This document shows, in pieces, positions 12,388-28,651 of a stretch of 29,847 nucleotides of DNA. A program made the position numbers and the translations under genes. The notes beneath the pieces are model-generated. The model saw nothing but the letters and a program-made list of their open reading frames with translations, was not told the origin of the DNA and did no database searches. The stretch covers positions 1 through 29,847 of IMG/VR virus record IMGVR_UViG_3300032271_000427; one strand, 5' to 3'. This DNA comes from a virus. Each line of letters opens with the position of its first letter. The stretch's first letter is position 1.

Positions 12388-12398
12388 ATAAAGAATAT

Positions 12399-12475: not shown

Positions 12476-12478
12476 AGT

Positions 12479-12657: not shown

Positions 12658-12716
12658 TTCATTTTATATACTACTGTTAATAACATAGTAAATAAGTACT
12701 CATATAAGGAATTACA

Positions 12717-12914: not shown

Positions 12915-12921
12915 AGTTTTG

Positions 12922-13006
12922 GAGTAGAAGCATCAATGGTGATGCAGTGGATTGTAAATCCGCCGCCCTTCGGGCACGACTGGTTCGATCCCAGTATACT
13001 CCACCA
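12922..13006 (+). tRNA. tRNA-Tyr(GTA)
   Basis: Acceptor GGAGTAG/ATACTCC (pair 7-66 mismatched), A73, CCA; GTGGA/TCCGC around TTGTAAA; long variable arm GCCCTTCGGGC; T-loop TTCGATC. Confidence 0.9.
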
Positions 13007-13074
13007 AGTTTGCAAACGTCAGCAATCGGCGTGACTAGTTGGGGAGAGACCCTTCACAGATTAATTTTTAAAAT

Positions 13075-13169
13075 GCTAGATAGCACTGGTGTGCGGCTGA
13101 ATCTTATAAGTTCGGGAGAGTGGTCAGATGGGCTGCAACGGATAGGTTCGAATCCTATATCTAGTACCA
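13075..13169 (+). tRNA. Unusual tRNA, anticodon uncertain (possibly TAT)
   Basis: Acceptor GCTAGAT/ATCTAGT, A73, CCA and T-arm ATAGG-TTCGAAT-CCTAT are normal. The D-arm GCAC-TGGT-GTGC is very short. Stem TGAAT/GTTCG around CTTATAA would read TAT (Ile). The region after it is about 27 nt, far longer than an Ile variable loop, so the assignment is weak. Confidence 0.55.
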
Positions 13170-13175
13170 AACAAC

Positions 13176-13253
13176 GGTGGGATGGCCGAGTGACCAAAGG
13201 CAAGTGACTGCAAATCTCTACAATCGTCGGTTTGAATCCGACTCCCACTTCCA
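13176..13253 (+). tRNA. tRNA-Cys(GCA)
   Basis: Acceptor GGTGGGA/TCCCACT, U73 as expected for Cys, CCA; loop CTGCAAA on an imperfect stem (29-41 T-T). Confidence 0.88.
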
Positions 13254-13262
13254 ATAAACTAC

Positions 13263-13291
13263 TTGACAGTAAATCAAGTTTGCGCTATAAT
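13263..13291 (+). promoter_or_regulatory. sigma70-type promoter with TAAATC block
   Basis: TTGACAGTAAATC, 17-bp spacer, TATAAT (13286-13291). Confidence 0.88.
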
Positions 13292-13314
13292 GTTTTATCA
13301 ATAGGAGAAGTACA

Positions 13315-13521
13315 ATGAAGTCTAAGATGACCGTACCCAAACGTAACCCCTTCGTTTGTTTGGTACTAAAAAAGACAGGGGCAGGTAGTCATCGTAAGTC
13401 TAACAAGGCTGTACGAAAGCAAGACAAGCAACGGGGGTATAGCTCAATGGTAGAGCATCCGGCTTTTAACCGGTCGACCACGGATCGTTACCGTGTGCCC
13501 CCACCAATGTTGTCATATTGA
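13315..13521 (+). CDS. Small basic protein whose frame runs through tRNA-Lys
   Basis: RBS TAGGAGAAG before ATG 13315. The first 40 or so residues (MKSKMTVPKRNPFVCLVLKK, then GSHRKSNKAVRKQDKQ) resemble a family of very short phage proteins sharing the VPKRNPFV start. No stop occurs before tRNA-Lys begins at 13433. The frame continues through the tRNA (GYSSMVEHPAFN is simply tRNA sequence translated) and stops at 13519-13521. Normal 5' cleavage of tRNA-Lys by RNase P would leave a stop-less mRNA. The biologically meaningful part is probably residues 1-40. Confidence 0.6.
   Translation: MKSKMTVPKRNPFVCLVLKKTGAGSHRKSNKAVRKQDKQRGYSSMVEHPAFNRSTTDRYRVPPPMLSY
13433..13506 (+). tRNA. tRNA-Lys(TTT), swapped T-loop
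   Basis: Acceptor GGGGGTA/TGCCCCC, A73, CCA; TCCGG/CCGGT around CTTTTAA. T-stem CACGG/CCGTG is perfect but the loop is ATCGTTA, as in tRNA-Ile(GAT). It overlaps the end of the 13315 ORF. Confidence 0.9.
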
Positions 13522-13623
13522 AGTACATTCAAAGGCGTAGCGCACGCTGAGTGATGGACATAGCAGCGTGTTAGGTTACGGTGTAGGCAGGTTCGATTCC
13601 TGCGTAGAGTGTATTTCAATATG
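13514..13623 (+). ncRNA. Inverted-repeat RNA element 9 with tRNA-type T-arm
   Basis: CATATTGAAGTACATTC pairs with GAGTGTATTTCAATATG. The insert has stem CACGCTG/CAGCGTG and a T-arm GCAGG-TTCGATT-CCTGC directly before the right arm. It lies between tRNA-Lys and tRNA-Met, away from the other elements. Confidence 0.7.
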
Positions 13624-13628
13624 ATAAT

Positions 13629-13705
13629 GGTGATGTAGCTCAGTTGGTTAGAGCAGGTGACTCATATTCACAAGGTCAGTGGTTCGAATCCACTCTTCAC
13701 TACCA
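13629..13705 (+). tRNA. tRNA-Met(CAT)
   Basis: Acceptor GGTGATG/CTTCACT with one T-T mismatch, A73, CCA; loop CTCATAT; T-loop TTCGAAT. An elongator Met or, if lysidine-modified, Ile2. Confidence 0.85.
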
Positions 13706-13715
13706 TAAGTTCAGT

Positions 13716-13791
13716 TGGGGATTAGCCAAGATGGTAAGGCAACGGATTTTGATTCCGTCATACACAGGTTCGATCCCTGTATCCCCTGCCA
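13716..13791 (+). tRNA. tRNA-Gln(TTG)
   Basis: TGGGGAT/ATCCCCT (1-72 unpaired T-T, near the weak U1-A72 of normal Gln), G73, CCA; ACGGA/TCCGT around TTTTGAT; T-loop TTCGATC. Confidence 0.93.
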
Positions 13792-13810
13792 AAATATAAA
13801 AGGAAATAAA

Positions 13811-14368
13811 ATGAATACTTGGATTACATCTGATCTTCATTTTAGTCACGCGAACATTATGAAATTTTGTCCAGAGTCACGGGCACGATTTAAAGATGAC
13901 GTAGACTATATGAACGAAACGATGATTAAAGAATGGAATGAACTAATTGACCCAAATGACTTGACGTATATACTGGGCGATTTTGCGTTTTGTAACGCTC
14001 AAAAAGCAACTGAGATTGCTCGCAGACTAAATGGCACTAAGATTTTGGTCGAAGGAAATCATGATCGTAAATCACTAAACGATCCTACATTTCGTAAATG
14101 TTTCAAAGAAGTTCACAAATATCTAGATATCAATTATAATGGTACTAAGATTGTGATGCTTCATTATCCGATTGCCGAATGGGATCAGATGCATCGTGGA
14201 AGTGTTCATTTTCATGGTCATCTTCACGGTGGTATTAGCGGAATGGAAAAGTATCGTTGTCGTGATATGGGAATGGATGCCACTAATCGTATTGCCATTA
14301 GTATTGAAGAAGCTATTGCAGATGCACTGACTGGTGAAATCAAGGGACATCATACTAAGGAAATGTAA
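13811..14368 (+). CDS. Calcineurin-like metallophosphoesterase
   Basis: 185 residues from ATG 13811 (RBS AAAAGGAAAT). The full metal-binding set is present: D8-x-H10 (SDLHFSH), GDF with D57, GNHD (N83-H84), H118 (MLHYP) and GHLH (H137, H139). Such phage enzymes hydrolyse phosphomonoesters or diesters, including RNA 2',3'-cyclic phosphate; the actual substrate is not shown by sequence. The stop overlaps the start of an Rnl1-type RNA ligase (TAATG). This tight coupling suggests that it prepares RNA ends (removing a cyclic or 3' phosphate) for ligation, a role split differently from T4 Pnkp plus Rnl1. Confidence 0.88.
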   Translation: MNTWITSDLHFSHANIMKFCPESRARFKDDVDYMNETMIKEWNELIDPNDLTYILGDFAFCNAQKATEIARRLNGTKILVEGNHDRKSLNDPTFRKCFKEVHKYLDINYNGTKIVMLHYPIAEWDQMHRGSVHFHGHLHGGISGMEKYRCRDMGMDATNRIAISIEEAIADALTGEIKGHHTKEM

Positions 14369-15258
14369 TGAATAAGCAAGCATTAAAAGAATTCGTAGAG
14401 TCTAATCCACGCTTGGTTTCTAAGAAATCTTGTGGCGATGGAATCTACGTACTGAAATACAAACGTCGAGTATTCTATGACAAATTGTGGAATGAATTTC
14501 TAGAAGAATGTCGTGGAACTATCATTGATGAAGATTTCAATATCGTGTCGTATCCATTCACAAAAATCTATAACTATGGAATCGAAGACAAAGCACCAAA
14601 GTTAACATCGGATACTGTCGTGACTATGTTTCGTAAAGTCAATGGATTTATGGCTGCTATCACTTGGCATAACAACGATCTGTTAATATCTACCACTGGG
14701 TCTACTGACTCACCATATGTTGATATGATTCGTGAGCTGATTGATGTTGAACGCTATCGTTCTGTATGCTCTCGATATTCAACCAAGACCTTTATGTTTG
14801 AGTGTGTTCACAAGAACGATCCACACATTATCCCAGAAGTTGAGGGAATGTACTTGTTAGGGTGGCGTGAGAAGTGTTGGAACTCTGAGATTGAAACTGA
14901 TATTGACACCGCTGCTCTTGATGGAGTTATTGCTGATCAATTTGAATGTCATCCAGTACTAGGTTACCGAGTAAACTTAGACGTAGTGTTGGACGTCGTT
15001 AAGCGAGTCAAACACGAGGGCTTCGTTTTTTACACAGATAACAAAGTGTCGGCAAAGATCAAATCGCCATACTATTTGATCAAAAAGTTTGTAGCTCGTA
15101 ATCCACGTACTGACAAGTTGATGAGAGCAGATATCAAACAATCAATAGATGAAGAATACTATCCATTGATTGATCATATTCAATCAAACATTGTTGAGTA
15201 TACTGCTCTAGACGAACAGTCACGATTAAAATGGGTTAGTGAGTTTTTGGAGCGATAG
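14368..15258 (+). CDS. T4 Rnl1-type RNA ligase
   Basis: 296 residues. Nucleotidyl-transferase motifs: upstream Arg motif ECRGTIID (residues 47-54), motif I K90-V-N-G (usual KxDG has N here), motif III FMFECVHKND (142-151), motif IV EGFVFYT (217-223), motif V K230-I-K232 (SAKIKSPYYLIKK). The C-terminal domain of about 60 residues matches the short Rnl1 group; T4 Rnl1 has 374 residues. The family seals 5'-phosphate and 3'-OH RNA ends in tRNA repair against anticodon nucleases. It is coupled to the metallophosphoesterase upstream and near about 34 tRNAs. The frame looks complete. Confidence 0.88.
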   Translation: MNKQALKEFVESNPRLVSKKSCGDGIYVLKYKRRVFYDKLWNEFLEECRGTIIDEDFNIVSYPFTKIYNYGIEDKAPKLTSDTVVTMFRKVNGFMAAITWHNNDLLISTTGSTDSPYVDMIRELIDVERYRSVCSRYSTKTFMFECVHKNDPHIIPEVEGMYLLGWREKCWNSEIETDIDTAALDGVIADQFECHPVLGYRVNLDVVLDVVKRVKHEGFVFYTDNKVSAKIKSPYYLIKKFVARNPRTDKLMRADIKQSIDEEYYPLIDHIQSNIVEYTALDEQSRLKWVSEFLER

Positions 15259-15498
15259 ATGAAAAAGAATAAGGCTAACATTGAACATCAGATCCAATTA
15301 AAAAAGGACGAGATTATTAAGTATGAAGAGGTAATTAAAAATTATCCCCCAGATCGTATGAAAAAATACGGTCAGCCCTATCTTCAACAGTTACACAATG
15401 ATCTTCAGATTCTACACAATGAATTAGAAGATCGAGAAGGTCGACGTGAGATTAAAACAAAATTAGGCTATAGTAGAATAGGACTAAACAATATATGA
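15259..15498 (+). CDS. Coiled-coil hypothetical protein, 79 aa
   Basis: Starts immediately after the ligase stop. Residues 5-65 are a charged heptad-type helix (IQLKKDEIIKYEEVIKNY, LHNDLQILHNELEDREGR), so a dimeric coiled coil is likely. It overlaps the next gene by ATGA. No family recognised. Cotranscribed with the RNA ligase. Confidence 0.65.
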   Translation: MKKNKANIEHQIQLKKDEIIKYEEVIKNYPPDRMKKYGQPYLQQLHNDLQILHNELEDREGRREIKTKLGYSRIGLNNI

Positions 15499-16181
15499 AA
15501 ATAAAAAGTAACTTTAAAGATTACTATGATCATGTAGCTCATGTATACGGTGGAGGAGACCCCAAATTCGTATATGCTCGTTTACCCATTCAGTCAGAAC
15601 GTTGTACATTAGAACTTAATGACAATCAAATGACTGAACTACGAATGAATAGATTGTATAATCATGACTTTGATCATCAATATAACTATCAATATAAGTA
15701 TTTGGTTATTGCTGGTCGTCGTTATCTCACGGCTTGTAAATGGGCAAAGAATGAATTGGTTCCCGTTGATTATAAGTTATGGACAGAAAAGAATTTTCCA
15801 GAAGAATATGAACATGCTCGTAATGGACGTAGTTTTTGGTCCAGACGTATTAACTATGAAACGGAACTAGGAGGAGAATTTCCCGTTTTAACTGAGATTG
15901 CTCATATGATCAATGCTCCGGTATATTCTGTAAATATGGTAAATCGCAATATTGGTAGAAACAAAAATCTAATTACAGTAGATAGCAATATACCAGTGTT
16001 ATCTAATTATGAAATACCCACTATTATTACAGCAGAACAATTGTATCAAGATTTGTCTTACTACGTATCAAACAAGATGCACGTTTCTCCTGATTTAGTA
16101 GTAAATGACAACCAAACTAACAAAGAAAAAATTGCTGGACATGGTTTTGATGTTAAGCAAAGTTTTAGACATAGGAAATAA
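15495..16181 (+). CDS. Conserved phage hypothetical protein, 228 aa
   Basis: MKIKSNFKDYYDHVAHVYGG and onward, ending AGHGFDVKQSFRHRK. A start of the type MKIxSxFxDYYD...GGGDPxxxY and a GHGFDxKxSFR end are typical of a family found widely in large phages, with no known function. The middle has many Tyr, Arg and Asn and no transmembrane helix. It follows a coiled-coil gene with an ATGA overlap. The C-terminal GFD/SFR motif may be the active or binding site, but that is a guess. Confidence 0.75.
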   Translation: MKIKSNFKDYYDHVAHVYGGGDPKFVYARLPIQSERCTLELNDNQMTELRMNRLYNHDFDHQYNYQYKYLVIAGRRYLTACKWAKNELVPVDYKLWTEKNFPEEYEHARNGRSFWSRRINYETELGGEFPVLTEIAHMINAPVYSVNMVNRNIGRNKNLITVDSNIPVLSNYEIPTIITAEQLYQDLSYYVSNKMHVSPDLVVNDNQTNKEKIAGHGFDVKQSFRHRK

Positions 16182-16182
16182 T

Positions 16183-16428
16183 ATGAACGAAGAAGACTTA
16201 GAATATCGCTTGAGAAAACGTGCTGAGATTCGTAGACAGATATTAACTCGTAAGAGTGTTATGGAAGGTACGCCAGATCGAATAGCAGATTTACTTGAAG
16301 AAGCGGCTGCTGAACTTAATCGTTTAAAGATAGAGATCGAACGACTTGGTAATCCAACTGAAGAAGTTAGACGTTTGACTGAAGAAGTTGAACGATTGAA
16401 TAATCTTCCAGGTCCAGCTTTTGCATAA
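16183..16428 (+). CDS. Coiled-coil hypothetical protein, 81 aa
   Basis: ATG 16183 has an RBS (ATAGGAAATA); an in-frame start at 16105 would overlap the preceding gene by 77 bases. Long Leu/Glu/Arg helix with heptads (LEEAAAELNRLKIEIERLG, VRRLTEEVERLNNLPG). No other domain. Probably a small oligomer or adaptor. Confidence 0.65.
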   Translation: MNEEDLEYRLRKRAEIRRQILTRKSVMEGTPDRIADLLEEAAAELNRLKIEIERLGNPTEEVRRLTEEVERLNNLPGPAFA

Positions 16429-16447
16429 TTAACTTTGGACAAATAGT

Positions 16448-17224
16448 ATGAAATTTTTAGTGCAGTTTAATTTGATTCACGAAATGGGTCTAGCTCAAGT
16501 TCGTGAAGCCATCAGTTCTTATCCACATCAATATGTAAGTGTTATTCCATTCTCTAATGAGATTATCTCTGATGAGCCAATTGAAGGCACTGACTATCTT
16601 GGTTATGGCAGTACTCTGTTTATCAAACTCGGTCATGAACGTGGATGGCAGGGTGTTTATTTTGACTACGAAAATTTCAATTATGAAACCGCAGTTAAAC
16701 ATCGCACTGATATGCTCAACAATGACGTTATACTGTCTGCAATCGACGTAATTCCATTTCTTGAAGAATCTACAGCAGATACATGGTTCGTTCGCCCTGC
16801 GCTTGATCTAAAGCATTTTAGTGGTCAAGTGATTGACAGAGTAGAATGTATTACATGGTTGAAAGACGCTATGAAGTGTGCTTCTAGTGGATCGTATCAG
16901 ATAAACAATGACTTGAAGATTGTATTGGCGCAACCAAAAAACATTCAAGCTGAATGGCGTTGGTTTATTGTCAATGGAAAAATAGTATCAGGCGCAATGT
17001 ATCGCTGTCGTGGTCAATTAGTTAAGATTCGTGAACTGGACAAAGCAGTAATTGACGAGGCTCAGAAATTGTCTGATGGTTGGTTACCACATCGTAATTG
17101 TGTCATGGATACAGCATTGGTAGATGATAAATTATCAGTTGTTGAGTTCAATTGTATTAACGGTAGCGGATTTTATGGACATGATGTTAATATTATTTTC
17201 AAAGAATTGTACGAAAACTGTTGA
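16448..17224 (+). CDS. ATP-grasp protein, R2K-type
   Basis: 258 residues. The N-terminal half is a mixed alpha/beta pre-ATP-grasp region. The C-terminal half carries WFVRPALDLKHFSGQVID, then IQAEWRWFIVNGKIVSGAMY and VVEFNCINGSGFYGHD; the E-F-N near the end is the Mg-ATP-binding E-x-N motif. This matches the R2K group of ATP-grasp ligases found in phages, which join a carboxylate to an amine. The substrate is unknown. It sits alone, followed by a promoter for a tRNA pair. Confidence 0.78.
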   Translation: MKFLVQFNLIHEMGLAQVREAISSYPHQYVSVIPFSNEIISDEPIEGTDYLGYGSTLFIKLGHERGWQGVYFDYENFNYETAVKHRTDMLNNDVILSAIDVIPFLEESTADTWFVRPALDLKHFSGQVIDRVECITWLKDAMKCASSGSYQINNDLKIVLAQPKNIQAEWRWFIVNGKIVSGAMYRCRGQLVKIRELDKAVIDEAQKLSDGWLPHRNCVMDTALVDDKLSVVEFNCINGSGFYGHDVNIIFKELYENC

Positions 17225-17249
17225 CTTTTATTTTAATGTCGTGTATAAT
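17221..17249 (+). promoter_or_regulatory. sigma70-type promoter of tRNA cluster C
   Basis: TTGACT (17221-17226) overlapping the ATP-grasp stop, 17-bp spacer, TATAAT (17244-17249). Confidence 0.82.
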
Positions 17250-17273
17250 AGTTAAATAGTAGAGTAAGTAAAC

Positions 17274-17359
17274 GGGTAGTTGCCTGAGTGGTTAAAGGAG
17301 CGGCTTGCTAAGCCGTCATCGGAAACGGTGCGTTGGTTCGAATCCAACACTACCCGCCA
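17274..17359 (+). tRNA. tRNA-Ser(GCT)
   Basis: Acceptor GGGTAGT/ACTACCC, G73, CCA; GCGGC/GCCGT around TTGCTAA; long variable arm; T-loop TTCGAAT. Confidence 0.95.
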
Positions 17360-17376
17360 CTAATTTGTAGTACATC

Positions 17377-17450
17377 GCAGGGTTGGCATATTGGTTGTGT
17401 CCTAGCCTTCCAAGCTAGTCAAAGGAGTTCGATTCTCCTACCCTGCTCCA
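17377..17450 (+). tRNA. tRNA-Gly(TCC)
   Basis: Acceptor GCAGGGT/ACCCTGC, T73, CCA; CTAGC/GCTAG around CTTCCAA; T-loop TTCGATT. Confidence 0.94.
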
Positions 17451-17468
17451 ATTTTTATAGGAAGTAAA

Positions 17469-17726
17469 ATGGCTGTAATAACTGAAGATCGTTTAAAACA
17501 ATTAATGATTGAGGCAAATGGATCTACTGATGAAAAATCGTGGACAATTGCTAGAAAATTTGCCAGCTTAGTATTACAAGAGAATATAACTATTAATTCC
17601 CCACTTAAAAATTTATCACAAGATGAAATACTAGAATTATGGGATTATAATAGTGGTGAACTTCTAGAGATAAACATTTTAGATTTTGCTAATGCTCATT
17701 GGAGAGCTTTATTAGGACTTATTTAG
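17469..17726 (+). CDS. Hypothetical protein, 85 aa
   Basis: RBS TATAGGAAG before ATG 17469. MAVITEDRLKQLMIEANGST, then helix-rich, ending NILDFANAHWRALLGLI. No transmembrane helix or known motif. It probably shares the tRNA transcript and leads directly into the next gene (9 bp gap). Confidence 0.65.
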   Translation: MAVITEDRLKQLMIEANGSTDEKSWTIARKFASLVLQENITINSPLKNLSQDEILELWDYNSGELLEINILDFANAHWRALLGLI

Positions 17727-17735
17727 GAGAAGTAA

Positions 17736-17942
17736 ATGGCACAACGTAATCAAGTAAGAGATCCAAACAAAACCAAAACTGGTAAACCCAGATTAGGTGG
17801 ATTAACAGTAAGTCAACTCACTACTATGGTTGATAAAGAAGGTAAGAAGAAAATTAAGGCAAAGATTCTTAATCAGATTCGTATTGTAACTAGTCGTAAA
17901 GACTATGTAGCACCAGTTGTAGTAGAATCTACAGTAGAATAA
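17736..17942 (+). CDS. Basic hypothetical protein, 68 aa
   Basis: A good RBS (TAGGAGAAG) precedes ATG 17736. MAQRNQVRDPNKTKTGKPRL, then Lys-rich (DKEGKKKIKAKILNQIRIV). The basic N-terminal half suggests nucleic-acid binding. Followed 11 bp later by tRNA-Thr(TGT). No family recognised. Confidence 0.65.
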   Translation: MAQRNQVRDPNKTKTGKPRLGGLTVSQLTTMVDKEGKKKIKAKILNQIRIVTSRKDYVAPVVVESTVE

Positions 17943-17953
17943 GCAGTATCAAT

Positions 17954-18029
17954 GCCCTTATAGCTCATTTGGCAGAGCACCGCACTTGTAATGCGGGGGT
18001 GGTCAGTTCGAATCCGACTGAGGGCACCA
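17954..18029 (+). tRNA. tRNA-Thr(TGT)
   Basis: Acceptor GCCCTTA/TGAGGGC, A73, CCA; CCGCA/TGCGG around CTTGTAA; T-loop TTCGAAT. Confidence 0.95.
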
Positions 18030-18033
18030 AGTA

Positions 18034-19185
18034 TCAAATCTTGAATAACTTCAAGTGATTGTGAATACGTTCTAGTGGTTCATCCCAATTGCCAATAGTT
18101 GGCTGTCTGAAAATACGACACGATGGATACCACGGACTGTCTTCACGATGTAGTAACCATCTCCAACAATTTCCAAATTGATTTAATGGTAGTAGCAATG
18201 GTTGACCCATAGCGCCAGTTAAGTGTGCTACGGCTGTATCTATCGCTACTACTACGTCACAATTGTGAATTAACCCAGCAGTATCGTCCCAATTAGTAAT
18301 TGATGCTGGATATGTTTTTAATCCAAGATTGATTAATGTTGTATTCTGCTCTTGACTGCAATCTGCTTGTAAATTAATCCATTCGTATTCTGGATTACGC
18401 TTAATCAATTCTATCATATTCTCAAATGGAATAGACTTGTGTTGATTAATCCAACTATCACGACGACCAGACCAACAAAATCCAACTCTGAGTTTAGTCT
18501 TAGTATCTAATTTTGTTTGCCAACGTTGAATTGATTGTTTACTAGCATTGATATACTGTATTTCTCTTGGCAAATTCTCATAAGTAATTTTTAAAATACC
18601 AGGAATACTCATTATGGAAATCCAATAATCAAATTCTGGCAATGGATCTACTGTAGACACAACGGTAACAGATTTTCTAAATGAATTTTCAATCAGTGAT
18701 TTAAGTACTGGCTCTACTGAAATAATTACATGAGTACCAAGAGCTTCTAATTGAGTAATAAAACGAGAAAATTGAATGTTGTCACCGTGTCCCTGTTCTC
18801 CAGAAATGAATAGTCGTTTACCATGTAAATTTTCCCCAGACCAACGTGGTTGTTTAAATTTTGGACTAAGACCATTTAGATGTTCGAATTGCCAACGCTT
18901 TTCATATTGAGGCCAGCCACGAGTTAAATCACCTGATAATAGATAAGCAACTGCCAAATTAAATTGAGCCACGGTATCATCTGGGTCAATATCAATGGCA
19001 CATTGTAAAAATCTAATTGCTCTTTCTGGAAAACCCATTTCTCTAATAACGTTTCCGTAGTTGGTATACGCCGCCCCCAAATCTGGAAATTTAATAAATG
19101 CTTGAGCATATAATTCAATGGCCTGATCTGGTCTGGATGTGGATCTAAAATGAGCAGCTTGCTCGAAAAGTTCTATTAATGTCAT
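18034..19185 (-). CDS. TPR-repeat protein with glycosyltransferase (GT9/heptosyltransferase-like) domain
   Basis: 383 residues. Residues 1-105 hold about three TPR units (PDQAIELYAQAFIKFPDLGA, AAYTNYGNVIREMGFPERAI, AQFNLAVAYLLSGD). The rest is a GT-B-type domain: WSGENLHGKRLFISGEQGHG, then VVAIDTAVAHLTGAMGQPLL and WRWLLHREDSPWYPSCRIFR. The same TPR plus glycosyltransferase layout is common in proteobacteria. It may modify phage or host glycans, blocking superinfection or protecting the phage surface. On the - strand, convergent with tRNA-Thr and without a clear RBS, it looks like a transferred accessory (moron) gene. Confidence 0.85.
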   Translation of the reverse strand: MTLIELFEQAAHFRSTSRPDQAIELYAQAFIKFPDLGAAYTNYGNVIREMGFPERAIRFLQCAIDIDPDDTVAQFNLAVAYLLSGDLTRGWPQYEKRWQFEHLNGLSPKFKQPRWSGENLHGKRLFISGEQGHGDNIQFSRFITQLEALGTHVIISVEPVLKSLIENSFRKSVTVVSTVDPLPEFDYWISIMSIPGILKITYENLPREIQYINASKQSIQRWQTKLDTKTKLRVGFCWSGRRDSWINQHKSIPFENMIELIKRNPEYEWINLQADCSQEQNTTLINLGLKTYPASITNWDDTAGLIHNCDVVVAIDTAVAHLTGAMGQPLLLPLNQFGNCWRWLLHREDSPWYPSCRIFRQPTIGNWDEPLERIHNHLKLFKI

Positions 19186-19244
19186 TACAATATTTAACAG
19201 TATTAATGAATCATTAATATTTTTATCAGTTTGTCCAAATTACA
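19186..19244. other. Divergent intergenic region
   Basis: A/T-rich with TAATGAATCATTA (an imperfect palindrome). It separates the - strand glycosyltransferase from the + strand promoter at 19245. No gene. Confidence 0.3.
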
Positions 19245-19273
19245 TTGACAATATCATAGTTATACAGTATAAT
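19245..19273 (+). promoter_or_regulatory. sigma70-type promoter
   Basis: TTGACA (19245-19250), 17-bp spacer, TATAAT (19268-19273). Confidence 0.85.
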
Positions 19274-19281
19274 AGTTTTAT

Positions 19282-19415
19282 TGATTGAGAAGCAATTCTT
19301 AAATCAATCGTGTAGTAAAAGGTAGACGAGAATAGACACACAAGTCTCTTGAAAAAGACTGATCCTAATCTTAGCGTCATGTGTCGTGATCTGGATCGCT
19401 GATCCACCAAATTGT
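19282..19415 (+). ncRNA. Structured leader RNA or atypical tRNA-like RNA
   Basis: From the predicted start: hairpin GATTGA/TCAATC with inner AGAA-GCAA-TTCT; then a larger unit with GACACA/TGTGTC enclosing AGTCT-CTTGAAAA-AGACT, and a hairpin GGATC-GCT-GATCC followed by ACCA. The CCA end suggests a tRNA relative, but no T-arm or acceptor pairing fits. No CDS begins until 19543. Confidence 0.35.
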
Positions 19416-19542
19416 TTATTGCTGATCATGAATATATGAACCCATGTTTATTGTACTTTGAACATTGTATAATGTTTATTGTCCGGTCTATTACTTGACC
19501 TTTTGCCACGTTAAATTTACTAATCATCTAAAAAGAGAAAAT

Positions 19543-20115
19543 ATGAACATTACACTACGTAAAGCATCAGCATTACAAAATCGTATCAATGAAACAATCA
19601 ATGATATTAGAATCGAAACATATGTGGACTTGAATGAGTTTCAAGACGCGAAAGAAGTATTAGCAACTGCAAATCAAACGCTATTTGATAACGATGCTCG
19701 TCGTCAGCAATTGTTATTAACATTATACACTGTTCGTAGCTTAGTGGCAGCAGCTAACTCAGCTAGTGGTGTTGATTTAAAATTAGCAACTGCCGCGTTT
19801 ATTGACAAGCGAATTGCTCAATTGGATCCAATCGCTCATTTGCCAGAACGTGAATCGTTGGACATTATTAATGGCCGTCTTGCTAAAATCAAAGCACAAG
19901 AGCCAAGCTCACGTAGTCGTTTGTACGGTGATCAAGATTCAGTAAAGACTTCAGTAGTTGATAGTGATCAAATTAAATTAATTAAACAAGAAATTTTGTC
20001 TTTGAAAAAACAAAAACAAACAATTAACGATGAAGTTCTTGAGTTGAATATCAAGACTGAGATACCACTAAGTGATGAATCAGTAGCTATTTTGACAGCA
20101 GAAGGAATTTTGTAA
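19543..20115 (+). CDS. Coiled-coil phage protein, 190 aa
   Basis: ATG 19543 (MNITLRKASALQNRINETIN) is preceded by AAAAGAGAAA; the longer in-frame start at 19465 lacks an RBS. Mostly helical, with heptad-like regions near both ends (NDIRIETYVDLNEFQDAKEV; IKLIKQEILSLKKQKQTIND). The start MNITLRKAxALQNxIN is common to a conserved T4-like phage family without known function. Long 5' leader of about 260 nt. It ends tail-to-tail with the QueC-like gene, with no gap. Confidence 0.75.
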   Translation: MNITLRKASALQNRINETINDIRIETYVDLNEFQDAKEVLATANQTLFDNDARRQQLLLTLYTVRSLVAAANSASGVDLKLATAAFIDKRIAQLDPIAHLPERESLDIINGRLAKIKAQEPSSRSRLYGDQDSVKTSVVDSDQIKLIKQEILSLKKQKQTINDEVLELNIKTEIPLSDESVAILTAEGIL

Positions 20116-20766
20116 TTAGATAGTTCCTGGGTCAGTTAAATTTAACTGTTGAAATCCCCAGGATCTTTCGTTACAACCATTACAACTGTTACATCTACTA
20201 ATCTCATGTATATCACAGCTATGAGTGATATAAAATAATGCTGATTGATCAAGTTTTATAATCAGATCAACTACATGACTTTTATTCAAGTGACAAAACG
20301 GAGCTTTAAATCGTTGAGTTTGTTGATATGGAATAGAACTCCATCCTATCATGTGTTCGGGTAATTGTTGTATCAAACCAGTGTATGCTCTGTCAAATTT
20401 TAATTTCCAAACATCTTGAAGACCAGATTTGACTTGTTCTGTTTCTGGCAATGTGTTGTCACCAACTATAATTGGATCCACGTATGGAAGTTTATAGTGT
20501 GAATTTACATGAGCTACAACTGGTTTGGCAAAGTGTCTGGATCCTTCTTTTCTTAGTACGGTGAACGGAACGATTTCGTGTATATTTTCTAATTCTTCAT
20601 TGACTTTCAACAACATATAATAAAGTATAGCACTGTCAATTCCACCGCTTATAAAAACGGCAATTTTTAATTTTCTAGAAGATGGAAGTAACAATGTTAC
20701 AGTTCGTTGATCATCTACTGGTCCGCACGTAATTTTCATCTTGTATTTATTGGATACATTACTCAT
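20116..20766 (-). CDS. QueC-like ATP-pyrophosphatase (7-cyano-7-deazaguanine synthase-like)
   Basis: 216 residues from ATG 20766; an in-frame ATG at 20739 is an alternative and neither has a good RBS. N-terminal PP-loop S40-G-G-I-D-S45 (AVFISGGIDSAILYYML), and a C-terminal four-Cys zinc site C184-x7-C192-x2-C195-x2-C198 followed by ERSWGF, as in QueC. QueC turns 7-carboxy-7-deazaguanine into preQ0. Phages use preQ0 to make 7-deazaguanine DNA modifications or queuosine tRNA. The middle diverges from host QueC and there are no intact QueD/QueE in this window, only a queE remnant at 2273. The start overlaps the divergent tRNA promoter. Confidence 0.8.
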   Translation of the reverse strand: MSNVSNKYKMKITCGPVDDQRTVTLLLPSSRKLKIAVFISGGIDSAILYYMLLKVNEELENIHEIVPFTVLRKEGSRHFAKPVVAHVNSHYKLPYVDPIIVGDNTLPETEQVKSGLQDVWKLKFDRAYTGLIQQLPEHMIGWSSIPYQQTQRFKAPFCHLNKSHVVDLIIKLDQSALFYITHSCDIHEISRCNSCNGCNERSWGFQQLNLTDPGTI

Positions 20767-20794
20767 TGACAATAAATATATCGTAGTGTATAAT
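20766..20794 (+). promoter_or_regulatory. sigma70-type promoter of tRNA cluster D
   Basis: TTGACAATAAAT, 17-bp spacer, TATAAT (20789-20794). The -35 overlaps the start codon of the divergent QueC-like gene. Confidence 0.87.
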
Positions 20795-20812
20795 AGTTTT
20801 ATAGTAAGAAAT

Positions 20813-20888
20813 GCTCCTCTAGCTCATCGGTCAGAGCAGGAAACTCATAATTTCTTGGTACCGTGTTCGATTCACGGGGGGAGTACCA
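20813..20888 (+). tRNA. tRNA-Met or tRNA-Ile2 (CAT), third copy
   Basis: Acceptor GCTCCTC/GGGGAGT, A73, CCA; GGAAA/TTTCT around CTCATAA; T-loop TTCGATT. With three CAT tRNAs in the window, one is likely Ile2 (lysidine-modified) or an elongator. Confidence 0.88.
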
Positions 20889-20905
20889 GATTTTTTGTTG
20901 TACAT

Positions 20906-20987
20906 GCGGGGGTATCTCATCCGGCTTCTACCCGGACGTTAATCGAGTAATTGGAGTATGCAGGTTCGAGTCCTGTCCTCCGCGCCA
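20906..20987 (+). tRNA. tRNA-Arg(TCT) without a normal D-arm
   Basis: Acceptor GCGGGGG/CCTCCGC, G73, CCA; perfect anticodon arm TCCGG-CTTCTAC-CCGGA; T-arm GCAGG-TTCGAGT-CCTGT. Only TATCTCA lies between acceptor and anticodon arm, so there is no D-arm. About 23 nt, with two GAG candidates to pair with CTC, follow the anticodon arm. Confidence 0.75.
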
Positions 20988-21088
20988 AAAATTTTAGGAA
21001 TTTCTTTTCAAAAATCTGCTATATGGATGAAAAGATATTTCCCAGAGATACACGAAGCTGTTTGTTTTAAAGTAAACAGAAATAAAAA
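20988..21088 (+). other. Spacer between tRNAs with hairpin
   Basis: A 15-codon ORF near 21023 (MDEKIFPRDTRSCLF) lacks convincing RBS spacing. A hairpin CTGTTT/AAACAG with a 10-nt A/T loop lies shortly before tRNA-Val. Nothing else recognised. Confidence 0.25.
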
Positions 21089-21162
21089 GGGTCGTTAGTT
21101 TAATGGTAAAACCTCGCTTTTACATGGCGATGACGGCAGTTCAATTCTGTCACGACCTACCA
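21089..21162 (+). tRNA. tRNA-Val(TAC)
   Basis: Acceptor GGGTCGT/ACGACCT, A73, CCA; TCGCT/GGCGA around TTTACAT; T-loop TTCAATT. Confidence 0.92.
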
Positions 21163-21168
21163 AGTTTT

Positions 21169-21253
21169 GCGAGAGTGGTGGAATTGGTATACACTATGGG
21201 CTTAAAACCCATCGCCGCAAGGATTACGGGTTCAAGTCCCGTCTCTCGTACCA
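21169..21253 (+). tRNA. tRNA-Leu(TAA)
   Basis: Acceptor GCGAGAG/CTCTCGT, A73, CCA; ATGGG/CCCAT around CTTAAAA; long variable arm; T-loop TTCAAGT. Confidence 0.95.
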
Positions 21254-22418: not shown

Positions 22419-22447
22419 TTGACGATAAATCAAAAACAGTCTATAAT
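22419..22447 (+). promoter_or_regulatory. sigma70-type promoter with TAAATC block
   Basis: TTGACGATAAATC, 17-bp spacer, TATAAT (22442-22447); duplicate of the 22104 promoter. Confidence 0.86.
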
Positions 22448-22477: not shown

Positions 22478-22747
22478 ATGATTACAGCAGAAAAATTAGA
22501 ACAGTTGCAGAATATTGGTGCCGATCAAATGACTGACATGATGTCAGACGCTGGCTATCCTGTCGCTGACGAGCCGTATCTCAACACTCATTTCGAGGGC
22601 ATGAACGTTTCTACCGATAATAAAGTAAACTTTCTTTACTGCGGTATGTATTACGACACTCATGTTACTTGTGCTATTCAGTACGCTCATTTGATCGTGT
22701 CATTCGATTTGATGACTGGCAAAACTTCAGTAGACTACTCAGCTTAA
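22478..22747 (+). CDS. Hypothetical protein, 89 aa
   Basis: RBS CGGAAGAAAAG before ATG 22478. MITAEKLEQLQNIGADQMTD, DMMSDAGYPVADEPYLNTHF, then beta-rich (VNFLYCGMYYDTHVTCAIQY). No motif recognised. Lies 12 bp before the Prs-like gene and probably belongs to the same transcript. Confidence 0.65.
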   Translation: MITAEKLEQLQNIGADQMTDMMSDAGYPVADEPYLNTHFEGMNVSTDNKVNFLYCGMYYDTHVTCAIQYAHLIVSFDLMTGKTSVDYSA

Positions 22748-22759: not shown

Positions 22760-23632
22760 ATGATCACAGTACGCGGCTTTGAAGATAAATTCTGGACATT
22801 TCCCGGTGGGGAACGTTCAGTCAAATTAACACTGAATGAAAAACAAATTGCTGTGCAACGAGTTTTTGATGCCACGCCCGCCGGCGAATGGCCTGTATTT
22901 GAAATGCGTATGGACTTCAGGGGTTCAGACGATTTAGTGGATATGATGCTGGCAGTAAACGCTCTACGCAATGCGTACGGGCATGAAATTAAAATATCTC
23001 TGGATGTTCCATATTTCCCATTTAGTCGGCAAGATCGTGTGATGACTGAGGGCGAGTCATTTGGACTTCAAGTGGCTGCCGATATGATTAAACTGTGCAA
23101 TTTCAAAAGTGTTACTACGCTTGATATTCATAGTGATGTAGCTGCCGCACTTTTCCCAGCAGGTGTATTTGGAAATGTTTCGCAAGACACAGTGTGGGCT
23201 AATCGCATCAAAGATTTGGCACACTTGGCAGAGTTGGAACTCAACGGAAAAACCGTTATTGTGTCGCCTGATGCCGGCGCACTCAAGAAAATTTACAAAG
23301 TAGCCGCTGCTACAGGATTGCCAGTAGTAGAGGCTAAAAAGATTCGTGACGTTGCCACAGGGCACATTGTCAAGACTGAAATTGATGGCTCACAACTTAG
23401 TGAGTTTGAACAAGTAGTTATCGTTGACGATATTTGTGACGGTGGACGTACATTCGTAGAACTTGGTAAAGTCATTCGTGATAGCGGGTTTCGAGGTAGA
23501 TTAGTACTGTGTGTAACTCACGGTATTTTCTCGAAAGGTCTGGATGTGTTTACTGAGTACTTTGATGAAATCCACACAGTAAACAATATCGGTGGGGTTG
23601 ATCTGGTCGCATTTAACGGCTCAACACGATAA
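22760..23632 (+). CDS. PRPP-synthetase-like enzyme (candidate Adps of NARP1)
   Basis: 290 residues against about 315 for host Prs. RBS AAAAGGAAAA. Family motifs: catalytic-loop RQDR (90-93) but followed by VMTEGESFGLQ rather than the host loop, LDIH (121-124), PDAG (170-173), EAKKIRD (191-197), PRPP-binding loop DDICDGGRT (223-231) and THGIFSKGL (253-261). It is paired with a Nampt-like gene. In the NARP1 phage pathway the Prs-like member (Adps) pyrophosphorylates ADP-ribose and the Nampt-like member (Namat) joins the product to nicotinamide, giving NAD+. Classical PRPP plus Nampt salvage is the alternative; sequence alone does not settle it. Confidence 0.88.
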   Translation: MITVRGFEDKFWTFPGGERSVKLTLNEKQIAVQRVFDATPAGEWPVFEMRMDFRGSDDLVDMMLAVNALRNAYGHEIKISLDVPYFPFSRQDRVMTEGESFGLQVAADMIKLCNFKSVTTLDIHSDVAAALFPAGVFGNVSQDTVWANRIKDLAHLAELELNGKTVIVSPDAGALKKIYKVAAATGLPVVEAKKIRDVATGHIVKTEIDGSQLSEFEQVVIVDDICDGGRTFVELGKVIRDSGFRGRLVLCVTHGIFSKGLDVFTEYFDEIHTVNNIGGVDLVAFNGSTR

Positions 23633-23637
23633 AAAGC

Positions 23638-23666
23638 TTGACAGTAAATTGGAACTTTGATATAAT
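23638..23666 (+). promoter_or_regulatory. sigma70-type promoter with TAAATT block
   Basis: TTGACAGTAAATT, 17-bp spacer, TATAAT (23661-23666). It gives the Nampt-like gene its own start; the leader has AAAGAAAAGG repeats. Confidence 0.86.
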
Positions 23667-23703
23667 ATTTACATAGACTAAAGAAAAGGAAAAGGAAAAG
23701 AAA

Positions 23704-25203
23704 ATGAAAATTACAGCACTCACTTCAATGGACTCGTACAAACTGGGTCACGGGGAAATGTACCCTGAAGGCACTACTAAAGTTTACTCAAACTTTACTC
23801 CACGTTCGCTCAAGCATTTGAACATGCCTGATCACTGGAAAGCAGATAACAAAATTGTGTGGTTCGGATTACAGGGCTTTCTTCACGAACTCAATTCAGT
23901 TTGGAAAGAGACATTTTTCGATTTACCCGAAGATGAAATTTGTGACGAGTTTCTTGAATTCGTAGCACCATTTGTCGGGCCCAACGGTTTCAATATCGAA
24001 CGTATTCGTGAATTACATCGTATTGGATACTTGCCGCTTGAAATCAAAGCTCTGCCAGAAGGATCACGAGTGCCGATTGGTGTGCCAGTATTGACAGTTA
24101 CTAACACTGTAGCATCAGCATTTTGGTTGCCTAACTTTCTTGAAACATGGCTTTCTGCTGAGTTGTGGAAATCATCGACTTCTGCCACAATGGCACGAGT
24201 GTATCGTAAAATTATCGACTCATACGCTGACGCTACAGGCGGAAGTAAAGAGTTTGTCGTATGGCAAGGTCATGACTTCTCAATGCGTGGCATGTCTGGT
24301 ATTGCTGATGGTGCAAAATCGGGTGCTGGTCATTTGTTGAGTTTTCTTGGAACTGACGTACTATCAGCAGTCAAGTATGTCAACGACTACTATCATGGCA
24401 AATCAACTTTTGTTGGTGGCTCGGTGCCTGCTAGTGAGCATAGCGTAATGAGTTCTTCTAGTCGTGATGCTGAGTTGGATACATATCGCTACATCTTGAG
24501 CAAATACCCAAGTGGTGTTGTCTCACTGGTTTCAGATACATACGACTTTTTCCAAGTGATCACAACATACGCCGCGATTCTGAAAGATGATATTTTGAAT
24601 CGTACTCCTGACTCACTTGGCTTGGCTAAAGTTGTGTTTCGTCCTGATTCGGGTGATCCAGTCAAGATTATCACTGGCGATCCAGAGGCATCAGCGGGTT
24701 CACCTGAACATAAGGGTGCTGTTGAATGTTTGTGGGAAATCTTTGGTGGTACAGTAAACGATAAAGGGTACAAAACTCTGAATCAACGTGTTGGTCTTAT
24801 CTACGGAGATTCGATTACCATTGAGCGTTGTAAAGATATCTTGTTTATGTTAGCCGCTAAAGGATTCGCAAGTGACAACATTGTATTTGGTATCGGTTCG
24901 TACACATACCAGTTTGCTACTCGTGACTCGCTTGGGTTTGCTATGAAAGCTACTCATCGTGTTACTAACGGCGAAGGTGTTGCTATCTTTAAGGATCCTA
25001 AGACTGATTCTGGTACTAAGAAATCTGCTCGTGGTTTACTGTGTGTACATCGTAGCCCACTCTCAGGTGACTATGTATTAGTTGATGGAGTGTCGAAATC
25101 GGCAGAACGTACAGGTGAGTTGAAAACTGTGTTTCTTGACGGTAAGATTCTTGTCAACGATACTTTCGAGGCGATTCGTAATCGTCTAGTTGCTGAGAAA
25201 TGA
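23704..25203 (+). CDS. Nicotinamide phosphoribosyltransferase-like enzyme (Nampt/NadV; candidate Namat of NARP1)
   Basis: 499 residues, full length. Motifs: DSYKLGHGEMYPEGTTKVYS (10-29), GHDFSMRGM (189-197) with D191 of the nicotinamide-type enzymes, SVPASEHSVM with the phospho-acceptor His at H246, VFRPDSGDP (311-319) and YGDS/GIGSYTYQ further on. Nampt makes nicotinamide mononucleotide from nicotinamide and PRPP. Next to the Prs-like gene it forms either a PRPP-based NAD salvage pair or the NARP1 pair that rebuilds NAD+ directly from ADP-ribose and nicotinamide after Sir2/TIR-type host defence. It has a separate promoter and RBS (AAAAGGAAAAGG). The next gene overlaps its stop (ATGA). Confidence 0.93.
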   Translation: MKITALTSMDSYKLGHGEMYPEGTTKVYSNFTPRSLKHLNMPDHWKADNKIVWFGLQGFLHELNSVWKETFFDLPEDEICDEFLEFVAPFVGPNGFNIERIRELHRIGYLPLEIKALPEGSRVPIGVPVLTVTNTVASAFWLPNFLETWLSAELWKSSTSATMARVYRKIIDSYADATGGSKEFVVWQGHDFSMRGMSGIADGAKSGAGHLLSFLGTDVLSAVKYVNDYYHGKSTFVGGSVPASEHSVMSSSSRDAELDTYRYILSKYPSGVVSLVSDTYDFFQVITTYAAILKDDILNRTPDSLGLAKVVFRPDSGDPVKIITGDPEASAGSPEHKGAVECLWEIFGGTVNDKGYKTLNQRVGLIYGDSITIERCKDILFMLAAKGFASDNIVFGIGSYTYQFATRDSLGFAMKATHRVTNGEGVAIFKDPKTDSGTKKSARGLLCVHRSPLSGDYVLVDGVSKSAERTGELKTVFLDGKILVNDTFEAIRNRLVAEK

Positions 25204-25535
25204 TCTGGTTTATTTTGCCACTAGTGATGTATATCATCGCTATCTCTGCCCAGTTGTTGTTCACCACTATTCCAGTTTTTCTGGTAGTGGTTCTAACAGC
25301 ACTGGGCATAGCGACGATTACACTTATTATATACATAGCACGAGTGATATTTAAAGCAACTAGACCACACAGTGATCGATCATACAGAGGTGTATTTTTT
25401 GGTGAATCATATTCTCGTAACTCAGATTCAGGCATAAGTTCGTTTCTTTCTGGATATATAGTTGGAAGTTCATCCAGTGATTCAAGTAGTTCATGTAGTT
25501 CAAGTTCAGACAGTAGTTCAGGAGGTAGTGACTAA
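25200..25535 (+). CDS. Membrane protein with Ser-rich tail, 111 aa
   Basis: Starts on the Nampt stop (ATGA). Two hydrophobic helices (residues 2-20 and 25-50: MIWFILPLVMYIIAISA; VFLVVVLTALGIATITLI) are followed by a polar region and a C-terminal tail almost entirely of Ser with some Asp and Gly (SSSSDSSSSCSSSSDSSSGG). Low-complexity Ser/Asp tails may be flexible linkers or phosphorylation targets. Function unknown; linked to the NAD genes only by position and coupling. Confidence 0.65.
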   Translation: MIWFILPLVMYIIAISAQLLFTTIPVFLVVVLTALGIATITLIIYIARVIFKATRPHSDRSYRGVFFGESYSRNSDSGISSFLSGYIVGSSSSDSSSSCSSSSDSSSGGSD

Positions 25536-25536
25536 A

Positions 25537-25704
25537 ATGACATTTATCGATATTGTAATGATGATATTATCTATTATTGGGTCTTTAGCACTCATTGGAT
25601 TAGTAATAGTATTTGCTTATATATTTAATAAAGTTGTGTTAACTTCAGTAGTGAGTGTCTACACAGAATTATATAATCAATCAAAACCTAAGGTTAAAAA
25701 ATGA
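25537..25704 (+). CDS. Small single-helix membrane protein, 55 aa
   Basis: ATG 25537 (MTFIDIVMMILSIIGSLALI) has an RBS-like CAGGAGG about 16 nt upstream; the in-frame start at 25462 would be inside the preceding gene. One long hydrophobic helix (about residues 4-30), then a polar end with Lys (KPKVKK). The stop overlaps the macrodomain start (ATGA), so the two are coupled. Confidence 0.6.
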   Translation: MTFIDIVMMILSIIGSLALIGLVIVFAYIFNKVVLTSVVSVYTELYNQSKPKVKK

Positions 25705-26159
25705 ATATTGTAAAAGGTAATTTATTAACATTGGCCGTAAACGGAAAGTTTGATGTTATTGTACAGGGCTGTAATTGCTTTTGTGCAATGGGTGGTGGTA
25801 TCGCTCGTGAAATCGCTGAACGTTTTCCTGAAGCCGTATTAGAAGATAATAAAACTATCAAGGGCGACTACAACAAGTTAGGTAATTACACACAAGTTGA
25901 AATTGACGATACGTTTATTTTGATTAATGCCTACACTCAATACGCATTAAGTAACGGAAATGATGTATTTGAATACGATGCTTTTAAATTGATTCTACAG
26001 AAATTAGCACGAGAATTTCCAGCCGCTCGTTTTGGTTTTCCATTAATTGGAATGGGATTGGCTAATGGAAACAAAACTCGTATTATGGGTATGCTGGCTG
26101 AATTTTCAGAAAAAATTACTGAGTTTGGCGGTACATTTACACTAGTAGAATTTGAATAA
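25701..26159 (+). CDS. Macrodomain protein (ADP-ribose binding/processing)
   Basis: 152 residues, a single macrodomain: N-terminal MNIVKGNLLTLAVNGKFDVI, the ADP-ribose loop VQGCNCFCAMGGGIAREIAE (21-40) and the second loop FGFPLIGMGLANGNKTRI. The NxF and GGG-I-A signature fits the Poa1p/ALC1-like class, which can hydrolyse ADP-ribose-1''-phosphate or remove ADP-ribose from targets. Encoded two genes after the Prs/Nampt pair, it plausibly recycles or releases ADP-ribose. It could also counter ADP-ribosylation by a host defence or by the phage itself. Catalytic class not certain. Confidence 0.88.
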   Translation: MNIVKGNLLTLAVNGKFDVIVQGCNCFCAMGGGIAREIAERFPEAVLEDNKTIKGDYNKLGNYTQVEIDDTFILINAYTQYALSNGNDVFEYDAFKLILQKLAREFPAARFGFPLIGMGLANGNKTRIMGMLAEFSEKITEFGGTFTLVEFE

Positions 26160-26493: not shown

Positions 26494-26814
26494 ATGATGA
26501 CAAAACGCAAACGCCGCAACGACTGTACCCACTTGATCTACGTGATTCAAAACACGGTGACGGGTGAACAGTACGTGGGTATCACTGTCAAGAACGTGGG
26601 TGGGATTCAAAAGACTCTCAAGCGCCGCATTCAAAAGCACGTGCAACGTGCGCTGGCTGAAGACAAGGGCTGGGCACTGTCACGCTCAATTCGTGAATAT
26701 GGCTCTGAGTCATTCACTTACGGCTTGCTCGAAACAGTACGTGGTCGTTCTGCCGCACATACTCGTGAGCGTGAGTTGATCAACGGTCAACGCCCAGCAT
26801 TGAACACATTTTAA
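26494..26814 (+). CDS. Small GIY-YIG nuclease, leaderless
   Basis: 106 residues. LIYVIQNTVTGEQYVGITVK contains the Y ... YVG core with spacing typical of GIY-YIG. A following RIQKHVQRALAED, an SREYG-like IREYGSESF and ERELINGQRPALNTF complete a compact catalytic domain. There is no DNA-binding extension, so it may be a minimal nuclease rather than a homing endonuclease. The codons are more G/C-rich than the neighbours, hinting at separate ancestry. It starts MM at the predicted transcription start with no RBS. Confidence 0.8.
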   Translation: MMTKRKRRNDCTHLIYVIQNTVTGEQYVGITVKNVGGIQKTLKRRIQKHVQRALAEDKGWALSRSIREYGSESFTYGLLETVRGRSAAHTRERELINGQRPALNTF

Positions 26815-27619: not shown

Positions 27620-28651
27620 ATGAGAAAGATGGCAACTATTCGTCGTATTGACGAACTAAACCCTATTGAGGGTGCTGATAAAATTGAAGTGGCTACCGTT
27701 GGTGGCTGGAAAGTCGTATGTCAAAAAGGATTATATGTAGTTGGCGATTTAGTAGTATACTGTGAAATTGATAGTTTCATTCCCACTACTATTGCTCCAT
27801 TTCTGACTCGTGACGGGCACTATCCAAAGACGTATAAGGGTGTTGAGGGCGAACGTCTGCGCACAATTAAGCTACGTGGGCAAATCTCTCAAGGATTGTT
27901 ACTGCCCTTGAGTGTTCTTGCTGTTAATACTTCTTCAGGTGATTATCTTGGTGACTGGGAACAGTTTGAGAACGAAGATGTAAGTGAGAATCTTGGCATC
28001 GTGAAATGGGATCCACCTGTATCAGCACAACTTGCTGGTGTCGCTCGTGGTAATTTCCCGAGCCAGATTCCAAAGACTGATCAAGAACGTTGTCAGAATT
28101 TGAAGCGTGAGATTTCTCAAGCTGGTAATACAATGTTTGAGGTCACTGAAAAATTAGACGGTTCTTCAATGACTGTATATCTGATTGATGGTGTCTTTGG
28201 TGTATGTAGTCGTAATCTTGATCTGAAAGAAAGTGAAGATAATACTTTCTGGCGTGTTGCTCGTGAGTTGGATCTTGAAACTAAAATGCGAGCTATGGGT
28301 GATAACTTTGCCGTTCAGGGTGAACTGATTGGCGAAGGAATTCAAAAGAATATCTATGAGATCAAAGGTCATAAATTCATGGTATTTGATATGTATGATA
28401 TTGTCGAGGGCGCATACTTGAAGCCAAACGATTGTCAAACTAAAACTCAAATACTGGGTCTACAACATTGTCCTATTATTCATCGTTGTGGTTCAGTAAA
28501 TCATACTATTGATGAATTGCTTGAATTAGCCGAGTGCAAGTCTATGTTGAATGTCAAGACCGAGCGTGAAGGTTTGGTATTCAAGGCATTGGATGGTGGT
28601 TTTACATTCAAGGCTATTTCAAATAAATTTTTATTAAAGCACGGGGATTAA
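27620..28651 (+). CDS. DraRnl-type (Rnl5) RNA ligase
   Basis: 343 residues, RBS AAGGAAAT. The N-terminal module (about 1-130; MATIRRIDELNPIEGADKIE, VGGWKVVCQK) is the OB-fold-like domain of the Deinococcus DRB0094 family. It is followed by a nucleotidyl-transferase domain with motif I K178-L-D-G-S-S (VTEKLDGSSM), motif Ia CSRN, motif III FAVQGELIGEG (E235), motif IIIa FMVFDMYD, motif IV EGLVFKALDG (E317) and motif V FKAISNKFLLK. The family seals nicks in RNA or RNA/DNA duplexes. It is a second RNA ligase, distinct from the Rnl1 type at 14368, near the 3' end of the NAD/RNA region. Confidence 0.88.
   Translation: MRKMATIRRIDELNPIEGADKIEVATVGGWKVVCQKGLYVVGDLVVYCEIDSFIPTTIAPFLTRDGHYPKTYKGVEGERLRTIKLRGQISQGLLLPLSVLAVNTSSGDYLGDWEQFENEDVSENLGIVKWDPPVSAQLAGVARGNFPSQIPKTDQERCQNLKREISQAGNTMFEVTEKLDGSSMTVYLIDGVFGVCSRNLDLKESEDNTFWRVARELDLETKMRAMGDNFAVQGELIGEGIQKNIYEIKGHKFMVFDMYDIVEGAYLKPNDCQTKTQILGLQHCPIIHRCGSVNHTIDELLELAECKSMLNVKTEREGLVFKALDGGFTFKAISNKFLLKHGD

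Follow-up and report, generated by a model that had tools for sequence, protein, structure and literature searches.

The locus at positions 22760-26159 on the + strand of a 29,847-base virus fragment (IMG/VR record IMGVR_UViG_3300032271_000427; the whole fragment is called the window here, and all positions are given on it) is, with a probability that we put at roughly 85%, a phage NARP1, in which a pair of enzymes would rebuild nicotinamide adenine dinucleotide (NAD+). This pathway, which restores NAD+ once bacterial defences have destroyed it, has been known since 2024 (Osterman et al., as cited in PMC12774641) and is common in phages. The locus comprises a Prs-like gene, a Nampt-like gene, two small membrane open reading frames (ORFs) and a macrodomain gene, and matches to Pfam, PHROG and NCBIfam models back the families. 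A previous reading of the same DNA from its letters alone (the sequence-only reading) had placed all five genes, with 290 aa for the Prs-like protein, as we find them. It had also proposed a NARP1-type locus, an assignment that tree placement and gene order support, together with the signature motif of Namat and the loop signatures of Adps.

Nicotinamide ADP-ribose transferase (Namat) possesses a selectivity clamp, GSX(phi)X(phi)X(phi)TRD, that Lan et al. 2026 defined as exclusive to this enzyme (PMC12774641). The 499-aa product of the ORF at 23704-25203 (+ strand; phrog_448, E 2e-180) contains the clamp helix GSYTYQFATRD at aa 398-408 (bases 24895-24927), which fits the published consensus, with aromatics at positions 3 and 7 and with Ala at phi3, where Asn or Val is usual. 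Its best match among solved structures is PDB 9w5x/9w5w, with 475 bits as compared to 237 bits for human Nampt; the PDB title says Nampt only, and we infer that this protein is the Namat of phage SPbetaL1 because Asp13, Tyr15 and Arg40 of PMC12774641 fall in place. The Nampt-like catalytic core (Asp, Tyr, Phe, Arg, His, Asp and RPDSGDP, aligned to 9w5x) is complete in the window protein and invariant in the multiple alignment. Two viral sets served for comparison, 80 loci found with the window Namat as query and 89 loci found with a canonical phage Nampt. The clamp motif is present in 80/80 of the former, which is partly expected from the search query, versus 0/89 of the latter. Furthermore, a tree of 71 Namat and 34 phage Nampt proteins splits cleanly (support 0.956), the window protein falling in the Namat clade. 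Because of the clamp motif, the far better match to the solved phage Namat and a clade devoid of the 34 phage Nampts, the ORF is predicted to encode a Namat and not an ordinary Nampt. Separately, the phrog_12872 profile (547 positions) aligns with Adps in its N-terminal half and with Namat in its C-terminal part (window 22760-25203), which suggests that fused or chimeric Adps-Namat proteins may exist in some phages.

The gene upstream, at 22760-23632 (+ strand; 290 aa, Prs family; phrog_619, E 2e-70), is the candidate for the ADP-ribose pyrophosphate synthetase (Adps). We compared 65 Adps sequences, drawn from the window, the viral loci and five named phages, with 19 canonical Prs. Adps proteins retain the catalytic Lys and Arg in a loop that is longer by one residue than that of Prs (pattern KxRDxxTGxI; KKIRDVATGHI in the window, 23336-23368), and the 5'-phosphate loop of Prs, DDMIDTGGTL, gives way to DDICDGGxTF (DDICDGGRTF in the window, 23426-23455). 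The signatures KxRDxxTG and DDICDGGxTF are found in 61/65 Adps versus 0/19 Prs, and the canonical ribose-5-phosphate loop DDMxDT[GA]GT[LI] in 18/19 Prs and 0/65 Adps. The window protein scores 109 bits on the Prs model TIGR01251, below the cut-off of 113, and the tree separates Adps from Prs with a support of 1.0. An Adps-like gene lies near 76 of the 80 viral Namat loci, versus none of the 89 Nampt loci. The family-wide loop signatures and the position upstream of Namat thus identify the window gene as a predicted Adps, in which the altered loop may give room for the ADP half of ADP-ribose. The sequence-only reading had spoken of an altered catalytic loop: the alteration is real, but the catalytic Lys and Arg are kept and the change is common to nearly all Adps. 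In four viral loci (L064, L069, L077 and L079; L numbers denote the loci compared) the gene order is reversed, Namat preceding Adps.

Could the pair rather serve the ordinary phosphoribosyl pyrophosphate (PRPP) route, in which a Prs and a Nampt yield PRPP and nicotinamide mononucleotide, and an adenylyltransferase of the host or the phage completes NAD+? The two proteins are members of the Prs and Nampt superfamilies, and a purified Namat also accepts PRPP in vitro (PMC12774641). However, the clamp motif is that of Namat, the Prs-type phosphate loop DTGGT is DGGRT here as in nearly all Adps, and none of the 89 phage Nampt loci has a Prs-like neighbour. We regard this route as very improbable.

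Under NARP1, the host defence would split NAD+ into nicotinamide and ADP-ribose, Adps would add pyrophosphate to ADP-ribose, and Namat would join this product to nicotinamide to give NAD+, in two steps in all; the chemistry of both enzymes comes from other phages and is predicted here from their signatures. The locus resembles the NARP1 of SPbetaL1 and its relatives in having Adps 5' of Namat, the Namat clamp motif and the loop signatures common to phage Adps, and differs from it by a probable separate promoter between both genes and by the extra ORFs and the macrodomain downstream. The 71 bases between adps and namat contain a promoter-like site, TTGACA-N17-TATAAT (23638-23666, + strand), that agrees with the consensus at 12/12 positions, recurs at the same place in L003, L009, L010 and L014, and is degenerate in L011. 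The perfect site and its presence in several relatives indicate that adps is probably transcribed separately from namat-orf-orf-macro, each unit with its own promoter. The last four genes had been read earlier as coupled or nearly so, which agrees with the 4-base ATGA overlaps of namat with the 111-aa membrane ORF (at 25200) and of the 55-aa membrane ORF with the macrodomain gene (at 25701), and with the single base between the two membrane ORFs; translational coupling of all four is predicted from this arrangement.

The macrodomain gene (25701-26159, + strand; 152 aa; phrog_335 family, E 6e-38) belongs by profile to the ALC1-like class. A profile built from 18 relatives matches, over the full length, Bt_1257 (E 5e-22), SCO6735 (E 4e-19), Poa1p (E 1e-17), TARG1 (E 2e-14) and DarG (E 8e-13), while the Pfam Macro model alone gives 19.5 bits on the window macrodomain, below its cut-off of 22. 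Gln80 is invariant in 18/18 members and meets Gln85 of SCO6735 in the profile alignment, in a register checked by a residue count of the 5e3b chain, compared with the numbering in print under the assumption of a 20-residue tag. SCO6735 takes ADP-ribose off thymidine in DNA and neutralises DarT, and mutation of its essential Gln85 abolishes activity (PMC9411070). With its full-length profile match and a Gln that aligns with the catalytic one, the window macrodomain is like the SCO6735/Bt_1257 subclass of ALC1-like macrodomains; it is unlike it in having Gly for Val25 and in being a phage protein under a predicted phage promoter. The characterised proteins nearest to it act by taking ADP-ribose off DNA and protein, and a DarG/SCO6735-like hydrolase is the most likely action of this protein, though much less certain than the NARP1 assignment.

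The combination of these genes is not without precedent. The order Adps-Namat-macrodomain was reported in Pseudomonas phage Adele, and the macrodomain was proposed to release ADP-ribose for NARP1 (PMC12846349). Adele and PAK_P1 (Pakpunavirus) share with the window this order and the macrodomain family, but the PAK_P1 macrodomain is only 34% identical to that of the window, with one other small ORF between each gene pair, and that of Adele retains more of the Poa1p residues. In Rheinheimera phage Barba19A, by its published description alone, the three gene types are also consecutive, in the order Nampt-like, Prs-like, macrodomain (PMC6715854). The NARP1 operon of mycobacteriophage DyoEdafos likewise carries an ADP-ribose-releasing accessory, RyDEP (PMC13232231), which is, however, a RyR-domain glycosidase for cyclic ADP-ribose (cADPR) signals, and no macrodomain. 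A survey of viral NAD+/ADP-ribose systems covers macrodomains and NadV widely, and NADAR domains beside NAD+ salvage genes (PMC9503650). In a limited literature search we found no published measurement of the association of the macrodomain with both Namat and Nampt.

In viruses, the macrodomain recurs in the neighbourhood of Namat. Among whole records of at least 25 kb with both genes, it lies within 6 kb of Namat in 12/20, where 3.1 are expected from a random macrodomain position (P 2e-6; this random-position model is crude and there is relatedness among the records, most of all among those with Nampt, and all such P values are guides only). Control genes in the same records show a weaker proximity to Namat, 4/21 for RNA ligase (P 0.45) and 4/13 for PhoH (P 0.045). 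The gene orders are a stronger sign of a real association than the P values: the macrodomain is found 5' of adps (L017, L044 and L067), between adps and namat (L021, L063, L070 and phage BBMuffin) and 3' of namat (the window, L011, L034 and phage PAK_P1). The family extends well beyond these loci, since 2,358 of the phage records searched encode a macrodomain relative, often labelled 'phosphatase'.

Bacterial loci give another picture. Scanning bacterial genomes with the Namat alignment gave at least 571 relatives, of which the best 80 (L207-L286) were analysed; 78/80 have the Namat motif and 77/80 an Adps-type gene within 8 kb. A macrodomain is nearby in only 3 of these best 80, versus 13/80 viral loci (Fisher P 0.015) or 11/65 after deduplication of the viral set (P 0.010), in a comparison where Acinetobacter is strongly represented in the bacterial set and many of the viral flanks are truncated. 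This scarcity suggests that the NARP1 enzymes can work without the macrodomain, and that the latter would serve the phage in its conflict with the host. According to the same scan, many bacterial chromosomes carry NARP1 pairs that have the signatures of Namat and Adps, among others in numerous Acinetobacter species, Marinomonas and Bacteroidota; in print, Namat is described as confined to a small number of genomes of bacteria (PMC12774641).

What, then, would the macrodomain do? Translated together with Namat, it may act on ADP-ribose that NAD+-consuming defences attach to DNA, protein or small molecules; freeing this ADP-ribose would undo the attack and feed Adps incidentally. Several observations weigh against this proposal or narrow it. 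Of the whole records of at least 25 kb that have macrodomain and canonical Nampt genes, 15/22 have the two within 6 kb of each other (3.7 expected, P 1e-8, with the reservation made above), and the canonical Nampt pathway does not use ADP-ribose. Given this equal link to Nampt, feeding Adps cannot be the sole reason for the presence of the macrodomain, and we rejected a NARP1-specific helper as the sole explanation. Furthermore, the macrodomain is absent from the flanks taken in 67 of the 80 viral Namat loci, and in L009, whose Namat is 91% identical to that of the window, it is 30 kb away from Namat. At the residue level, the catalytic Lys84/Asp125 of TARG1 and Lys80 of DarG are missing, and His23 and Ser30 of Poa1p are replaced by Gln and Ala, Asn26 and Gly33 being kept; because of these losses the protein might only bind its ligand. 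The sequence-only reading had the macrodomain feeding or sensing ADP-ribose, which is plausible and has been advanced in print for Adele, but the macrodomain is not bound to NARP1, as it clusters with Nampt to the same degree and is almost missing from the bacterial NARP1 loci.

Binding could have a purpose of its own. A sponge that captures ADP-ribose-derived signals, such as the cADPR isomers of Thoeris, without cleaving them would account for the lost catalytic residues, and phage sponges for such signals are known (PMC13232231). Nevertheless, the invariance of the Gln that is essential in SCO6735 suggests catalysis, and we hold a sponge to be unlikely. Still less probable is an ADP-ribose-1''-phosphate phosphatase of the Poa1p type, which would recycle a dead-end product from the decay of ADP-ribose pyrophosphate or a related intermediate. 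Poa1p is the best PDB match of the macrodomain by single-sequence search, and PHROGs labels the phrog_335 family 'phosphatase'. However, the macrodomain is equally common beside Nampt, where ADP-ribose pyrophosphate is not made, which argues against a role confined to this compound, and it is rare in the bacterial NARP1 loci, which produce this intermediate too. The replacement of Poa1p His23 and Ser30, together with the aligned and invariant Gln80/Gln85, makes a hydrolase of the SCO6735 kind more likely than such a phosphatase.

Two accounts of the hydrolase deserve more weight. The macrodomain could be a separate counter-defence enzyme of the DarG/SCO6735 type, which would act against host ADP-ribosyltransferases such as DarT by clearing ADP-ribose from the DNA or protein that they have modified and would have no functional tie to NARP1, the genes clustering as both answer NAD+-consuming defences. 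The ranking of Bt_1257 and SCO6735 as nearest by profile, the neutralisation of DarT by SCO6735 and the equally strong clustering with Nampt are consistent with this, as is the occurrence of the family in phages like T4 (Tk.4), where no NARP1 gene was seen in the flanks inspected. The recurrent adjacency and the probable co-transcription with Namat argue, on the contrary, for some joint use, and we give this account serious but less than even credence. Being equally frequent beside canonical Nampt but near so few bacterial NARP1 loci, the macrodomain seems to be a general phage accessory to the rebuilding of NAD+. Our fuller proposal remains tentative and is rather doubtful as a whole: the phrog_335 macrodomain would be a phage-specific third component of viral NAD+ rebuilding, shared by both routes, NARP1 and Nampt, and acquired independently several times; as a hydrolase, it would free ADP-ribose from the adducts or signals that NAD+-consuming defences make.

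The two membrane ORFs between namat and the macrodomain gene had been put forward earlier as unstudied partners, which our comparison does not support. The first (25200-25535, + strand) encodes 111 aa with a single membrane segment and a Ser-rich tail; the second (25537-25704, + strand) encodes 55 aa and probably starts at the ATG at 25537 and not at the listed TTG at 25462. Neither is conserved: except for one identical contig, no relatives were found in the viral contig loci. In L003, whose Namat is 97% identical, the gap after namat is filled by several ORFs, among them one of 58 aa and one for a lipoprotein-like protein, and the macrodomain is at a distance of 4.7 kb; in L011 (Namat 88% identical) the gap contains another, different membrane ORF along with an ORF that resembles homing endonucleases. 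With unrelated ORFs at this place in such close relatives, we rejected them as conserved partners, and they look like passengers of a variable stretch.

Upstream of adps, a promoter-like site TTGACG-N17-TATAAT (22419-22447, + strand; 11/12 consensus positions) precedes an 89-aa ORF with no assigned function (22478-22747, + strand; phrog_22754, E 0.001), which among the viral loci compared is found upstream of adps only in the closest relatives, L003 and L011. Sites of the TTGACA-N17-TATAAT type, this one included, number 16 in the window (906-26487), all on the + strand, versus 0.65 expected, and often run on into TTGACAnTAAATC. The window also encodes a GIY-YIG homing-endonuclease-like ORF just 3' of the macrodomain (26494-26814), an RNA ligase with a PHA02142 OB-fold domain (27620-28651; Pfam PF09414, E 9e-28), a QueC-like protein on the - strand (20116-20772) whose Pfam model is matched mainly in its C-terminal part, and 31 predicted tRNA genes on the + strand (3357-21253) that cover most amino acids. 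No relatives at the nucleotide level were found among cultured phages.

In conclusion, the locus would add a divergent phage to the distribution of NARP1, as an ordinary and, from its sequence signatures, well-supported member with a known accessory of putative function. The combination of KxRDxxTG and DDICDGGxTF provides a simple sequence test that tells Adps from Prs. A more useful lead comes from the macrodomain, which clusters with two different NAD+ routes but is rare next to the NARP1 pairs of bacteria, a contrast that opens a role in counter-defence to direct tests. If our proposal for the phrog_335 macrodomain is true, the phage would through this protein both remove the damage and recover NAD+.

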